Shown here in pieces: positions 57,342 through 62,818 of a stretch of 64,000 bases of DNA; position 1 is the stretch's first letter; each line of letters starts with the position of its first letter. The notes under the pieces are model-generated. The model saw only the letters and a list, made by a program, of their open reading frames with translations, was not told the origin of the DNA and made no database searches. The stretch is from Armatimonadota bacterium (GTDB lineage: Bacteria > Armatimonadota > Fimbriimonadia > Fimbriimonadales > Fimbriimonadaceae). Where the stretch lies: contig JAFLBD010000001.1 in assembly GCA_017303935.1 (NCBI GenBank), positions 496,001 to 560,000 of the forward strand. Reading direction: 5' to 3'. The position numbers were made by a program, and so were the translations under genes.

Positions 57342-58286
57342 ATGAAACTGTTTGTGGGCAACGCAAACCCGGAACTCGGGCAGCGCGTAGCCGACTACCT
57401 CGGCATCGATGTCGGTGCGATGACCATCACCCAGTTCAGTGATGGTGAAATTCGCGTGATGATCGAAGAAAGTGCCCGCGGGAACGACGTCTTCATTCTT
57501 CAACCGACCTGCGAACCAGCAAACGACAATTTGATGGAGTTGCTGATCATGCTGGATGCCTTCCGGCGCGCAAGTGCAAGTCGCATCACTGTTGTCATGC
57601 CGTACTACGGCTATGCTCGGCAAGATAAGAAAATCAAGCCGCGCGAGCCGATCACAGCGAGGCTTTGCGCGGATCTGATCACCCAAGCAGGCGCGATGCG
57701 AGTCGTCGCGGTGGACCTCCACGCCGAGCAAATTCAAGGATTCTTCGATATCCCGGTGGATCACCTCTACGCTGGCCCGATCCTTGGCGAATTTTTGATT
57801 AACGAAGGATTCGCCAACGACGAAAACACGGTCGTGGTGTCCCCTGATGTGGGCGGCGTGCCGCGAGCCAGGAGCCTTGCTGAAATGCTCAAGGCGAGCC
57901 TGGCAATCATTGCAAAGCGGCGTCCGGAACCTAACAAGGTGGATATCGTGGAGATTATCGGTGATGTCAGTGGCAAGCGTTGCGTGATGATTGACGACAT
58001 GATCGACACCGGAGGCAGTGTGATTCATGGTGCAGAGGCACTCATGAAGCGCGGGGCCACCGAGGTTGTCGTGTGTGCCACTCATGCCGTGTTTAGCGGA
58101 AACGCCAGCCAGAGACTACAGGACAGCGTCGTAAACCGCGTTGTGGTGACAGACACGCTGCCGATTTCCAAGCAAAGGATGTTCCCTAAGCTGACGATCT
58201 TGCCGTGCGCACCACTTTTGGGTGAGGCAATTCGGCGAATTCACATGAATGAGTCGGTGAGCACGCTGTTCAAGCAGTGGAGATAA
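57342..58286 (+). CDS. prs: Ribose-phosphate pyrophosphokinase
   Basis: 314 residues from MKLFVGNANPELGQRVADYLG. Alternative starts are TTG 57315, which overlaps the glmU stop as TTGA, and ATG 57282. Prs features: FSDGEIRVMIEESARGNDVF, the ATP site MPYYGYARQDKKIKPREPI, and the PRPP loop CVMIDDMIDTGGSV. It makes PRPP from ribose 5-phosphate and ATP, supplying enzymes such as Upp and PyrE, which are both encoded nearby. It overlaps the next gene by ten bases. Confidence 0.94.
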   Translation: MKLFVGNANPELGQRVADYLGIDVGAMTITQFSDGEIRVMIEESARGNDVFILQPTCEPANDNLMELLIMLDAFRRASASRITVVMPYYGYARQDKKIKPREPITARLCADLITQAGAMRVVAVDLHAEQIQGFFDIPVDHLYAGPILGEFLINEGFANDENTVVVSPDVGGVPRARSLAEMLKASLAIIAKRRPEPNKVDIVEIIGDVSGKRCVMIDDMIDTGGSVIHGAEALMKRGATEVVVCATHAVFSGNASQRLQDSVVNRVVVTDTLPISKQRMFPKLTILPCAPLLGEAIRRIHMNESVSTLFKQWR

Positions 58287-58780
58287 CCGAGGAAATCAGG
58301 TGGTCGGTCCGACTCGGGGATTCTGATCCAAGAAAGCGGTACATCGTGCTCTTGGTAGCATGCTTTGCCGGAATTGTTGGATCGATTATTCCCGGACTCG
58401 GATTCATCTACGGCCTCATCGGGTTTGCACTCGTGATTGTGAGCAGCGCAGAGCTGTTCTTTCCAATCCACTATGCGGTGACAAACAAAAAGATTGAGAG
58501 CCGATGTTTGCTGTCTATTTCGTCCATGGAGTGGACGCAAATCAAGCGAACTTTTGAGGACTCGGATGGCGTAAAGCTATCACCATTCGAGAAATCGCAC
58601 CGAATGGAACCATTTCGCGGGGTTTATATTCGTTTTGCCAACAATCGAGAGCTGGTTTTGGCTAAAATTCGCGAACAACTAGACGATGTCAAGAGAACTC
58701 TGGAAGGAGGAACTGACGGAGGAGGAAGTGGTCACGTTGACGACGAAAATCGCTCACGAGATCACGAAGCGGCGCCTTGA
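58277..58780 (+). CDS. Membrane protein with bacterial PH-like domain (DUF6754 cluster gene 1)
   Basis: 167 residues from GTG 58277. A polar start (EITEEIRWSVRLGDSDPRKR) precedes two hydrophobic helices (about 22-61), then a beta-rich domain resembling bacterial PH domains (PIHYAVTNKKIESRCLLSISSMEWTQIKRTF). A KLSPFEKSHRMEPFRGVYIRF strand motif follows. The last ~25 residues (Gly/Asp/His-rich) lie over the next gene's start and look unconstrained. Possibly a lipid- or protein-binding membrane adaptor. Confidence 0.6.
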   Translation: MEITEEIRWSVRLGDSDPRKRYIVLLVACFAGIVGSIIPGLGFIYGLIGFALVIVSSAELFFPIHYAVTNKKIESRCLLSISSMEWTQIKRTFEDSDGVKLSPFEKSHRMEPFRGVYIRFANNRELVLAKIREQLDDVKRTLEGGTDGGGSGHVDDENRSRDHEAAP

Positions 58781-59015
58781 AGTGCCCGCCATCCTTGCTC
58801 TGGAGATGCAGAAGCCGGTCGCGAATGTGACCGCGCACTTTGCGTTGGCAACGATTGGATTTGTCGCGCCCTTTATTGGGTTCGATCTTTTCAACGACCT
58901 GACACGTCTGCTTGCTAAACGGGATAATATCGAACGCCTGCTCACGGAGATTGAGAAACAAGCTGCGGAGAGGGATCGATCACCGAAGTCGCTCGGAGAG
59001 GAGATGACAAGTTAA
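58686..59015 (+). CDS. Small helical protein (DUF6754 cluster gene 2)
   Basis: 109 residues from ATG 58686. A GTG at 58728 preceded by GGAGG at five bases is a strong alternative and gives 95 residues. The sequence EEVVTLTTKIAHEITKRRLEVPAILALEMQKPVANV is amphipathic; a moderately hydrophobic helix (LATIGFVAPFIGFDLF) and a charged helix (RDNIERLLTEIEKQAAER) follow. No known fold assigned. It overlaps gene 1 by 95 bases and abuts gene 3. Confidence 0.6.
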   Translation: MSRELWKEELTEEEVVTLTTKIAHEITKRRLEVPAILALEMQKPVANVTAHFALATIGFVAPFIGFDLFNDLTRLLAKRDNIERLLTEIEKQAAERDRSPKSLGEEMTS

Positions 59016-59999
59016 ATGCAATATTACGATACAGGTTGGATAAGCATCGTGTTCACCATCATGTTGGTGGGCTTTGTGCTCTATAACATCCAGCGCGCGA
59101 AGAAGACGAGCGGTAGCTTGTACATTCGCCGAATTCCCGGATTGAACGCAATCGACGAGGCAATTGGCCGCGCAACAGAAATGGGCCGCCCAGTTCTGAT
59201 GGTTCCCGGCCTCGGCCCGCTCAACGCGGTTTCGATTCAAGCGCTCAACATTTTTGCTCACGTCACTGGAACTGCCGCGAGATTCGGAACACCGATCCGA
59301 TTGTGCTGCGGAAACGCTCCGGTCTACACGGTTGCTCAAGAAATTATCAGCGACGTGTACACCCGCGAAGGTTATCCTGACCGGTTCCATTCGGATTCGG
59401 TGCAGTTCCTTTCGGACCGCCAATTTGCATTCGCGACCGCTGTTTCTGGAATGATTCACCGCGAAAAGGTCGCAGCCGCGTTCTTACTTGGTGAGTTCTT
59501 TGCAGAATCTCTAATCTTTGCCGAAACCGCGAACAGCGTTGGAGCGATTCAGGTTGCTGGATCGGTGCAGAACACCCAAACACCATTCTTTATTGCCGCC
59601 TGCGACTACGTTTTGATTTCCGACGAATTCTACGCCGCGTCGGCGTACTTGAGCCGAGAACCGGTGCTGGTCGGATCGCTCGTTGGCCAAGACTGGATCA
59701 AGGTAGCGATGATGGCGTCAGTTGTTCTAGGTTCGGCGATGAACTCATTCGAACTCAGCGCTGTAAAGCAAAAAGAGGAAAAGGTCGTTGAGATGGTTCC
59801 TCTTAAGGTCGATCCAGGGATGTCTGCTGGCACCGCGCGAAAGGAAACGGTGACTCAGCTGACTGAGCCTCGAACAAAGAGAGCTGATGAATTGACCACG
59901 TACAGGATTTTCACTCCTGAAGCTCCACCAAAGCCAACGCGCCAAGAGCGACCACCGAAGGAAGAGGAAGCAGCACCAGCTGAAGGAGGTAGCGTTTAA
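59016..59999 (+). CDS. DUF6754-type membrane-anchored protein (cluster gene 3)
   Basis: 327 residues. One N-terminal helix (about 8-25) is followed by IRRIPGLNAIDEAIGRATEMGRPVLMVPGLGPLNAVSIQAL, which I recognise as the DUF6754 pattern. The domain continues as alpha/beta with AVSGMIHREKVAAAFLLGEFFAESLIFAETANSVGAIQVAGS and DYVLISDEFYAASAYLS. A disordered acidic/proline-rich C-tail ends RQERPPKEEEAAPAEGGSV. No catalytic residues are evident. Its stop overlaps gene 4 (TAATG). Confidence 0.7.
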   Translation: MQYYDTGWISIVFTIMLVGFVLYNIQRAKKTSGSLYIRRIPGLNAIDEAIGRATEMGRPVLMVPGLGPLNAVSIQALNIFAHVTGTAARFGTPIRLCCGNAPVYTVAQEIISDVYTREGYPDRFHSDSVQFLSDRQFAFATAVSGMIHREKVAAAFLLGEFFAESLIFAETANSVGAIQVAGSVQNTQTPFFIAACDYVLISDEFYAASAYLSREPVLVGSLVGQDWIKVAMMASVVLGSAMNSFELSAVKQKEEKVVEMVPLKVDPGMSAGTARKETVTQLTEPRTKRADELTTYRIFTPEAPPKPTRQERPPKEEEAAPAEGGSV

Positions 60000-60907
60000 T
60001 GTTGAATTTCTTGATGCAAGCTGAACCACCTGCCGGCATCTTTTTGCCAGCCGAGTCGCAACAGCTAAAGATAGCGGTCCTGGTCACTCTCTTAGTTGGA
60101 TTTGCAGTTATGGTCGGCTTGATGTACGCGCCGTACCGGCTACGACGACCGATTGTCGTTGCAGCAACCTTCCTGTCCGGTTTCTTCTGGATTTTGGTCT
60201 GGTTGTTCCCGGCCCCCGTCGAACTCGGCCCGAACGAAATCCCACGCAACGCGATGGAGAATTTCGGTATGCGGCTCGCCGATGGAATTCCGGTCGTGAG
60301 CAATATTTCTCAAACGCTCAACGCGTTGCTCTTAGGATTAGGTGTTTTCTCAGTCCTCAGAATGCACACGACTAGGCTCGTCAAGCAACAGAAAGACTGG
60401 GTATTCAGCGTTGTCCTTCTGGTCGCCATGTTCTCCATGGTCACCGTGGGTTACATGAACTACAACGAAGTTCTGCGCAATCCAGACCTCGCCGATCCAA
60501 ACAAGTGGGGAAGAACTCAATTTGCGACGGACTTCCTGTTTGATGGCATGCTCCAAGCGATGGACGCAGCAATGTTCTCGATCATTGCGTTCTTCATCCT
60601 GGTTGCCGCCTATCGCGCATTCCGCATTCGCTCAATCGAATCGACGGTGCTACTCGGCACCGCACTGATCGTGATGCTTTCGCTCATGGGGGCAGTTGAA
60701 TTTGCCTCGACCAACATGATCAACGGTATCACTGGTGGTGATCCTGGGCACTTCCTGAACAACTTTGCACTCGCAAACATTCGGGCTTGGATTCAGACAA
60801 ACATTCAAGGTCCCGGCATCCGCGCTCTCGAATGGGGCATTGGAATCGGTGCGCTCTCGATGGGACTTCGACTTTGGCTGAGCCTTGAAAAGGGTGGTGG
60901 AAACTGA
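59999..60907 (+). CDS. Polytopic membrane protein (DUF6754 cluster gene 4)
   Basis: 302 residues with about seven hydrophobic helices: near 22-42, 52-70, 103-120, 134-152, 180-200, 214-234 and 275-293. The loop between helices two and three contains PAPVELGPNEIPRNAM. A Trp/Asn-rich loop (DLADPNKWGRTQ) lies between four and five. No transporter or enzyme signature. It abuts its neighbours with one-base overlaps on both sides (TAATG, TGATG). Confidence 0.65.
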   Translation: MLNFLMQAEPPAGIFLPAESQQLKIAVLVTLLVGFAVMVGLMYAPYRLRRPIVVAATFLSGFFWILVWLFPAPVELGPNEIPRNAMENFGMRLADGIPVVSNISQTLNALLLGLGVFSVLRMHTTRLVKQQKDWVFSVVLLVAMFSMVTVGYMNYNEVLRNPDLADPNKWGRTQFATDFLFDGMLQAMDAAMFSIIAFFILVAAYRAFRIRSIESTVLLGTALIVMLSLMGAVEFASTNMINGITGGDPGHFLNNFALANIRAWIQTNIQGPGIRALEWGIGIGALSMGLRLWLSLEKGGGN

Positions 60908-61863
60908 TGATCTACAAACTGATGAATATCAACCGGTTTGTGATGTACCTCTTGTTGGTCATCGCCATCGGCCTTCCATTGTTGTTCCTCAAGATTGAGG
61001 TGCCGACGATCACAGCTTCGAATACTGAAGATCTGTACATCGCTTACAACAAGTTGCCCGAAGGTTCAACTGTCTTCTTGGAATCAGACTGGACCGTTTC
61101 TACACGTGGTGAGAACGCCGGTCAACTCGAAGCTCTGCTCAAGCTGCTTCGGTTGCGAAACGTCAAATTCGTGCTCTATTCCTGCTCGGATGCTCAGGCT
61201 CCTCAAGTGGCAAGAAACACGATCACCAACGTCAATAAGCAGCTTGTTGCGGCCGGTCTTGAACCGTTCAAGCCGTGGGAAGACTATGTGGACGTTGGAT
61301 TCTATCCCGACATCGAAGCGCTTTACAATGCGATCAAGAGCAACCCACGTAACGCGTTCACCGGGAAGACGGCAAACAACCCGGCGACCCGTCAAATGGA
61401 GGATGTTTACAAGTCGCCTGTGCTCAAGGACATCCGAAAGGTAGAAGACATCGCGATGGTGATCAACATTTCGGCGAGTGGAACACTGAAGTACATCGTT
61501 CAACGAATTGGATCGAAAACGAAGATTGGTTCGATGGTGACCGGTGTGATGGGGCCAGAAGCGATGAACTACTACGCTGCTAAGCAGATTGCTGGACTTT
61601 CAGTCGGTTTGCGCGGTGTGGTGGAACTCGAAACGATGATGGCCAAGGGCGTCAACTACTCAGATGGAGACAAGGAGCCTTTCGTTAAGGCGGAACAGCT
61701 CAATGGCAAGATCGAACCAATCGATCCAAAGCTTGAGCCGTTCGGTCGTGGCATGAGGTACTTTGCTTCGCTCCACGCTGCGCTCTTTCTGCTGATCCTT
61801 GCAGTTGTGCTCGGAAACATCGGGCTCTACCTGCAAAAGCGACAAAACAAAGGGGCTAACTAA
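60907..61863 (+). CDS. Two-anchor protein with large extracytoplasmic domain (DUF6754 cluster gene 5)
   Basis: 318 residues. An N-terminal helix (about 11-30) and a C-terminal helix (about 290-308) bracket a ~255-residue alpha/beta domain. It holds LPEGSTVFLESDWTVST, KFVLYSCSDAQAPQVAR, DYVDVGFYPDIEALYNAI, KDIRKVEDIAMVINISASGTLKYIVQ and MGPEAMNYYAAKQIAGLSVGLRGVVELE. The alternation of strands and helices suggests a Rossmann-like domain without a nucleotide motif. The side of the membrane is uncertain. It starts within the stop of gene 4. Confidence 0.65.
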   Translation: MIYKLMNINRFVMYLLLVIAIGLPLLFLKIEVPTITASNTEDLYIAYNKLPEGSTVFLESDWTVSTRGENAGQLEALLKLLRLRNVKFVLYSCSDAQAPQVARNTITNVNKQLVAAGLEPFKPWEDYVDVGFYPDIEALYNAIKSNPRNAFTGKTANNPATRQMEDVYKSPVLKDIRKVEDIAMVINISASGTLKYIVQRIGSKTKIGSMVTGVMGPEAMNYYAAKQIAGLSVGLRGVVELETMMAKGVNYSDGDKEPFVKAEQLNGKIEPIDPKLEPFGRGMRYFASLHAALFLLILAVVLGNIGLYLQKRQNKGAN

Positions 61864-61868
61864 CAGCC

Positions 61869-62765
61869 ATGTCATTTGAATTCGGAAAACTTCTCATTGG
61901 GGTTCTCTTAACCCTTGGTTTGTACAGTGTTCTGTACCGTGAAAACAAGTTCTACCGGATGGTGGAGCATATCTATATCGGTCTCGCGGTCGGATTTGCT
62001 ATGGTCGCCTTGTGGACGGAAACTCTGGAAGCAAGCTTCTGGAAGCCGCTCATGGGGACTCCTGCCAAAGACGGTGCGCCGGGTGTACCAGGGTTCTTCC
62101 TGTACGCTCTGTTGATTCCTGTTGGCATCATGGGTTACATGGTGTTCAGCAAGAAGCATAACTGGATGAGCCGAATCCCGATTGGAATCATTCTTGGCTT
62201 CTCGGGTGGACAACAACTCCAGGTGTTCTGGGGCGAGTACGGCCCGCAAATCCAAGATTCGATGCGGCCAGTTCTGCCGACTACTACAAGTTCGTTCTTC
62301 GTTCCAAACGGTATTCAGCTATCGCAGAATTCGATCAATGAAATTGCGACTGGAACAGGGGTGCCTGCTCAGTTTGTGAGCACGATTGCGCAGAACGCAC
62401 AACTGAAACAGTCGGACATCATCGCACTGGCACAAAACAACGGGCTGACGGTGGACCAAGTTAAGGGAGTCATTGCCGCAGTGCTTGGCAAGATCAACAG
62501 TGAGATCTATTTCTCGCAGGCGATCAACAACGTGATCTACTTGGTCACGCTTCTTTCGGTGCTCAGCTACTTCCTCTTCAGCTTCAAGCAAGAAGGGAAA
62601 CTCATCAGCGGCTTCACGCGGCTGGGGCGCTGGCTAATCATGGTTGGCTTCGGTGCCATCTTTGGCAGCACGGTCATGACGCGGTTCGCGCTACTCATCG
62701 ACCGGTTGCAGTTTGTTCTCGTAGAATTCCTGAGAGACGGAATCCCAACCCTTTTCAGTCGCTAA
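61869..62765 (+). CDS. Polytopic membrane protein (DUF6754 cluster gene 6)
   Basis: 298 residues. Helices lie near 7-22, 33-50, 75-93 and 101-118. A Gln/Ser/Asn-rich ~90-residue soluble segment follows (LSQNSINEIATGTGVPAQFVSTIAQNAQLKQSDIIALAQNNGLTV), then helices near 215-240 and 254-275. No recognisable transport motif. It starts six bases after gene 5 and closes the cluster before a terminator. Confidence 0.65.
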   Translation: MSFEFGKLLIGVLLTLGLYSVLYRENKFYRMVEHIYIGLAVGFAMVALWTETLEASFWKPLMGTPAKDGAPGVPGFFLYALLIPVGIMGYMVFSKKHNWMSRIPIGIILGFSGGQQLQVFWGEYGPQIQDSMRPVLPTTTSSFFVPNGIQLSQNSINEIATGTGVPAQFVSTIAQNAQLKQSDIIALAQNNGLTVDQVKGVIAAVLGKINSEIYFSQAINNVIYLVTLLSVLSYFLFSFKQEGKLISGFTRLGRWLIMVGFGAIFGSTVMTRFALLIDRLQFVLVEFLRDGIPTLFSR

Positions 62766-62784: not shown

Positions 62785-62818
62785 CGAATCCCCGCGCCGT
62801 TTTGGTCGCGGGGATTCG
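62785..62818 (+). terminator. Terminator after the DUF6754 cluster
   Basis: A 12-bp perfect stem (62785-62796 with 62807-62818), GC-rich, with a ten-base loop, is followed by TCTTT. It lies 20 bases after the last cluster gene. Confidence 0.85.

Follow-up and report, generated by a model that had tools for sequence, protein, structure and literature searches.

ATPases of the GlmL/MutL family (PF13941, NF040745 and TIGR01319) belong to the ASKHA fold family and serve as accessory proteins of glutamate mutase. In the type IV pilus/type II secretion platform (PilM-N-O-P, GspL), an actin-like cytosolic ATPase is combined with inner-membrane proteins that carry folded domains. DUF6754 (PF20539) is named only as a family of unknown function. 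Here we describe a membrane module that includes a DUF6754 protein and is encoded in part by a six-gene block (g1 to g6) in a stretch of 64,000 nucleotides (the window; C1:496001-560000) of the 2.56 Mb genome of an Armatimonadota bacterium. Four genes of the block, g3-g4-g5-g6, recur in the same order in about a dozen labelled phyla, and a GlmL-like ATPase and a second protein, here called B, belong to the module although they are encoded elsewhere in this genome. The likeness to the pilus/secretion platform is an analogy only, with no sequence relation seen. The product of g3 is a nearly full-length DUF6754 member, and the partners found here lie outside the description of that family. A search of the open-access literature, with subscription journals outside its scope, yielded no paper naming DUF6754, PF20539 or PF13941 and nothing relevant on GlmL; provisionally, the module is undescribed in the literature.

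An earlier reading made from the letters alone (the sequence-only reading) had placed six tightly packed open reading frames here, and all are present on the + strand:

58277-58780, + strand: g1, protein with two transmembrane (TM) segments and a weakly bPH-like C-terminal part; Armatimonadota-type accessory subunit
58686-59015, + strand: g2, helical protein of ~100 amino acids (aa); core subunit
59016-59999, + strand: g3, DUF6754 protein, TM - alpha/beta domain (predicted cytoplasmic) - TM
59999-60907, + strand: g4, polytopic protein, 5-7 TM, without a Pfam model
60907-61863, + strand: g5, TM - alpha/beta Rossmannoid domain (predicted extracytoplasmic) - TM, without a Pfam model
61869-62765, + strand: g6, polytopic protein, about 5 TM, without a Pfam model
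62785-62818, + strand: terminator-like hairpin after g6, 12-bp perfect stem, weak T-tract

Gene order within and beyond Armatimonadota

A species-level genome collection was scanned with the DUF6754 alignment, which gave at least 576 confirmed relatives; the locus counts refer to the best 80 of these, and their phylum names are those of the record titles. The genes g3-g4-g5-g6 are consecutive and on one strand in 72 of the 80 loci, from ~12 labelled phyla, and the 83 cassettes have a median gap of 7 bp. The labels comprise Armatimonadota/Zipacnadia/WS1, WOR-3/Stahlbacteria/TA06, Poribacteria, Nitrospira(e), Latescibacterota, Cloacimonadota, Edwardsbacteria, Zixibacteria, the Fermentibacterota type (Sabulitectum, Aegiribacteria), Coatesbacteria, Mcinerneyibacteriota and one Planctomycetota metagenome-assembled genome. 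Co-occurrence was looked for beyond close relatives and extends to about a dozen phyla, as the sequence-only reading had expected when it proposed a conserved membrane module that recurs with similar partners. Eight loci lack the intact order: five are cut off by the end of a contig, g5 is split in one, and the remaining two are genuine exceptions. These last are WOR-3 loci with an apparently lone g3 (L078:7947-9026 and L122:7974-9074) and no g4-g6 downstream. In Nitrospirota the module is patchy, since DUF6754 is present in only 8 of 61 genomes.

Two or three g3-g4-g5-g6 cassettes are present in nine loci (L094, L131, L144, L105, L110, L112, L114, L118 and L130), which suggests paralogous complexes with different g3 ectodomains. 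The cassettes are arranged head-to-tail; those of L118 are opposed.

Within Armatimonadota, 220 of the 251 genomes sampled encode DUF6754, whereas 14 control genomes all lack it. Neighborhoods of ~13 kb from ~35 genomes, covering most families of the phylum, were searched with profiles built up from the genes of the window block. Most sampled families preserve the order g1-g2-g3-g4-g5-g6; deep families have g1-g2 some 3 kb upstream of g3. The g1 gene is found mainly in Armatimonadota and is a lineage add-on.

In the window's own family the block follows glmU-prs, as it would if it were an ordinary operon of that lineage, tying unrelated membrane genes to this pair. This explanation has practically no chance of being correct and is refuted by the conservation of the block in ~12 labelled phyla without glmU-prs. 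Among the Armatimonadota neighborhoods sampled, glmU-prs lie upstream only in that family, and elsewhere the module has other neighbors, such as aroK-aroB (Poribacteria), trxB-like and serA-like genes; the glmU-prs position, once offered as a functional clue, is therefore uninformative about general function. Beyond the module, no flanking gene common across phyla was found, and recurring flanks are mostly phylum-specific. One such flank is a gene of ~420 aa, not assigned to a family (L103:11650-12921, + strand), that follows the module in 12 Nitrospira-type loci. Plasmids contain neither DUF6754 nor B, and only distant true GlmL.

In the window, the prs stop and g1 overlap by 10 bp, and g1 and g2 overlap by 95 bp, an overlap that is probably real because g2 homologues begin at the same position. 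The g2 and g3 genes abut directly, g3/g4 and g4/g5 overlap by 1 bp each, and the 5 bp between g5 and g6 are the largest spacing inside the block. Between g6 and recO lies a perfect 12-bp inverted repeat (62785-62796/62807-62818), with a folding energy of -27 kcal/mol (z = -4.4 vs shuffles). The T-tract of this hairpin is poor (GTCTTTGG); thus, of the closing terminator that had been proposed, the strong hairpin is present but a good T-tract is not.

The GlmL-like ATPase and protein B

Two further genes separate g2 from g3 in Nitrospira, Zixibacteria, deep Armatimonadota and one Latescibacterota locus. One encodes a GlmL/MutL-type ASKHA protein of ~600 aa (PF13941, E about 1e-125). The other encodes B, a protein of ~375 aa with a sub-threshold RnfC_N/Biotin_lipoyl-like (barrel-sandwich) stretch and a C-terminal KOW-like part. 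Both are present in the window genome, apart from the block, and fusions of the two occur elsewhere:

C1:805679-807538, + strand: GlmL-like gene, ~250 kb downstream of the six-gene block
C1:810724-811845, - strand: B gene, ~250 kb downstream of the six-gene block
L182:7233-10130, L183:5786-8545, L184:6158-8908, L185:6557-9334, L186:5799-8693: GlmL-B fusions, stand-alone

The GlmL-like protein of the window genome matches PF13941 at 425.5 bits (E 3e-127), passing the gathering score of 27, and is 55-59% identical to all other sampled sequences, across phyla. The two genes adjoin each other in several Armatimonadota, L188 has a contiguous g3-g4-g5-g6-GlmL-B, and in most other phyla g2 lies directly upstream of the GlmL-like gene. 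Single-ORF GlmL-B proteins of 920-970 aa are present in six genomes (Cloacimonadota, Sabulitectum/Fermentibacterota, Aegiribacteria). Such one-frame fusions are classical evidence that two proteins work together, although these particular fusions are paralogues that lie apart from the module among unrelated neighbors, and the same genomes keep a separate GlmL and B.

Co-inheritance was scored in the same 251 Armatimonadota genomes for DUF6754, GlmL and B, with GlmL matches far below family level counted as missing. DUF6754 is absent from 31 genomes, GlmL from 25 and B from 22, and 20 lack all three. Eleven genomes keep B without DUF6754; eight of these are <90% complete, and the assemblies of the other three (G023, G055 and G106) are fragmented. 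The p values from Fisher tests are 2e-17 for DUF6754-GlmL, 1e-19 for DUF6754-B and 1e-25 for GlmL-B, and they overstate the significance because losses are shared by descent, so that lineages are not independent. The losses are nevertheless spread over several separate families (f1-g15, f8, f11, f13, f16, f26 and others). Nitrospirota provide an independent and exact replicate, in which the identical 8 of 61 genomes carry DUF6754 and B. Among 32 genomes of other groups, all encode GlmL, and B and g2 are each present in 31; g2 is always single copy there and usually lies directly upstream of GlmL.

The six window genes are thus only part of the module, to which the GlmL-like ATPase and B also belong. 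The conserved membrane complex proposed by the sequence-only reading is supported, but the unit was drawn too small. Its "six genes in fixed stoichiometry" is wrong because g1 is mainly limited to Armatimonadota, and its count omits the ATPase and B.

Compared with described GlmL/MutL proteins, the ATPase of the module has the same fold family and conserved nucleotide motifs (DCGSTTTK, DIGGATTD and GSGG.LSH, invariant or nearly so). It differs by a C-terminal extension of ~115 aa, is about 26-31% identical to true GlmL, and has membrane proteins rather than mutases as partners. Could the module instead be a redox or radical-enzyme activation complex, in which a GlmL-like activase and an RnfC-like B feed a membrane electron-transfer unit? 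The role of the GlmL family as an accessory of B12 mutases speaks for this, as does the RnfC_N match of B (20.2 bits, below the cut-off of 25.6). However, the GlmL-like protein does not reach the equivalog cut-off (223 vs 475 bits) or the subfamily cut-off (175 vs 204 bits) of NF040745/TIGR01319. Glutamate mutase genes (glmS/glmE) were not found beside the GlmL-like gene in the window genome or in other phyla, where flanks were clustered or read and were partly annotated; its neighbors are g2, B or unrelated genes, with no family common across phyla, and the module has no recurring mutase or B12 gene next to it. Conserved cysteine columns are lacking in g2, g4, g5, g6 and B, with a single one in g3, so the usual iron-sulfur site is absent, and no further Rnf subunit was seen in the module. 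We consider a redox role very unlikely.

Domains and membrane topology

A scan of the six window proteins against Pfam and NCBIfam gave no family for g1, g2, g4, g5 or g6, and NCBIfam gave none for g3 either. In Pfam, g3 matches DUF6754 at 302.7 bits (E 2.2e-90; gathering score 27 bits), in agreement with its description as an anchored DUF6754 protein, although by hydropathy only TM1 is clear and the second anchor scores weakly. Hydropathy gives two TM segments for g1 and for g5 and five each for g4 and g6. The assignments of g2 as a helical protein of ~100 aa, g5 as a two-anchor alpha/beta protein and g6 as a second polytopic protein all agree with the sequence-only reading. The g4 protein is polytopic, as predicted, but five rather than seven helices score at the threshold used (range 5-7). 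The two helices of g1 are likewise present, but its PH-like character is weak: of the 12 family members scanned, three match bPH_6, at a best E of 0.0014, and the window protein does not.

Outside Armatimonadota, most g3 relatives open with an Fn3-like domain, as do those of deep Armatimonadota families, giving the order Fn3, TM, alpha/beta DUF6754 domain, second TM. The Fn3 assignment comes from profile matches to titin and fibronectin and from a predicted structure (predicted local distance difference test (pLDDT) score 93; Fn3 at ~11-114; fold search Z about 13). That fold search covered Fn3 and the alpha/beta domain of DUF6754 together and was swamped by Fn3. The window g3, like that of most other Armatimonadota families, lacks Fn3 and has an added proline-rich tail; in some Cloacimonadota and Mcinerneyibacteriota, g3 reaches ~950-1160 aa. 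Charge bias over 68 g3 proteins predicts a cytoplasmic alpha/beta domain with Fn3 outside, and over 112 g5 proteins an alpha/beta domain outside. The g5 model (pLDDT 87) is a generic Rossmannoid with no stand-out match in the PDB: its best fold match has a Z of 8.5 (3.5 A over 148 residues), level with many short-chain dehydrogenases/reductases. By sequence, the PDB holds nothing for g1, g2, g4, g6 or the GlmL-like protein of the window genome, noise only for g5, a match to g3 only through Fn3, and a sub-threshold one to B (KOW of SPT5). Paralogy of g4 and g6 was considered and none was found. In the window lineage, g6 carries an insert of ~70 aa.

This topology bears on two further explanations. 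The first is a new kind of transporter that would use ATP to move a small molecule, an ion or a cofactor. Here g4/g6 would form the permease, g5 would contribute a fixed binding domain outside, and the ASKHA protein would be the motor. Two polytopic proteins with a cytosolic ATPase are consistent with it, as is the outward g5 Rossmannoid, whose best structural neighbors include periplasmic ribose-binding protein, at a Z (7.8) not above background. Against it, 48 g4 and 49 g6 members searched against Pfam gave only scattered matches of 1-3 members (best E 8e-5) and no transporter family. The sequence-only reading had seen no known transporter, enzyme or secretion signature in the block, and g4/g6 indeed fall in no characterized transporter family in Pfam or the PDB. 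Moreover, no substrate-pathway genes recur by the module across phyla, and no ASKHA protein is known to serve as a transporter motor. A transporter is unlikely.

The second is a structural or cytoskeletal scaffold of the envelope, in which the ASKHA protein would behave like FtsA, PilM or MreB, g2 and the membrane core would provide its anchor, and Fn3 would face outward. The ASKHA fold is common to actin-like proteins, and outward Fn3 domains and tandem cassettes with differing g3 ectodomains would suit such a scaffold. However, the ATPase matches the GlmL/MutL family and not FtsA/PilM, and no division or pilus genes recur nearby; we regard a scaffold as quite unlikely.

A candidate ATP-driven membrane machine

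We tentatively favor, with slightly less than even confidence, a widespread membrane module whose seven-protein core (g2, the GlmL/MutL-like ASKHA ATPase, B and g3-g4-g5-g6) would be ATP-driven and would handle a polymer. The module combines a conserved gene order, co-inheritance of g3, GlmL and B, ATP-binding motifs, GlmL-B fusions and membrane anchors, and the seven proteins very probably form one physical complex. In this complex, which would lie in the inner membrane, g4 and g6 would make up the membrane body, the alpha/beta domain of g3 would face the cytoplasm (with Fn3 outside in most lineages beyond Armatimonadota), that of g5 would lie outside, and g2 and B would dock the cytosolic ATPase. 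By analogy with its fold family, the ASKHA protein may, or equally may not, use cycles of ATP binding and hydrolysis to drive conformational changes through the membrane core. There is about an even chance that the module is a new class of machine, an undescribed architecture in which a GlmL-type ASKHA ATPase powers a transmembrane complex of four subunits that expose domains on either side of the membrane. As its most likely use, we weakly propose that the module exports, assembles or remodels a polymer outside the cell or in the periplasm, probably a glycan.

The glycan proposal draws on the outward Fn3 domain of g3 and on inserts in two lineages. In L039 (4269-5879, - strand), g4 has an outward insert of ~300 aa that resembles a five-bladed propeller of glycosidase type, with concordant sub-threshold matches (GH32N, E 0.09; mannobiose phosphorylase, E 0.08); g1, g2, g5 and g6 were not detected at this locus. 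In L058 (2564-3643, - strand) and L059 (3055-4287, - strand), g6 has an inserted, jelly-roll-like outward domain, which in L058 matches PF09092 (Lyase_N, a polysaccharide lyase N-terminal domain) at E 2e-4, below cut-off. Separately, in g4 of L060 (4373-5725, - strand) the first and second TM helices are separated by a long, coiled-coil-like insert (T2SSM, weak, E 0.04).

Several points weigh against the proposed machine. The glycan matches are sub-threshold and Fn3 is not sugar-specific; use on an extracellular glycan is accordingly a weak proposal, and we hold it doubtful. Physical assembly, ATPase activity and substrate are all inferred only. GlmL relatives of known context serve cytosolic B12 mutases, not membranes. 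The alpha/beta domains of g3 and g5 have a like helix/strand order, but profile comparison gives no homology, and their common origin is only a possibility. A link to the outer membrane or to secretins was also rejected: the genomes tested that lack the module retain Omp85, and all but one of them retain a secretin, which argues that its role is independent of the outer membrane or of a type II/IV machine.

Conserved multi-gene membrane modules of no known function are rare. Given its presence in about a dozen phyla and in nearly every Armatimonadota genome, a basic role is expected. A constant ATPase partner, an accessory (B) backed by fusions and a seven-gene core turn an anonymous DUF into a testable complex, for which Nitrospira and cultivable Armatimonadota (e.g. 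Fimbriimonas) are suitable organisms. If the proposal is correct, the GlmL family, until now known only as a helper of B12 enzymes, would have a new role, in a machine shared by about a dozen phyla and by nearly all Armatimonadota.

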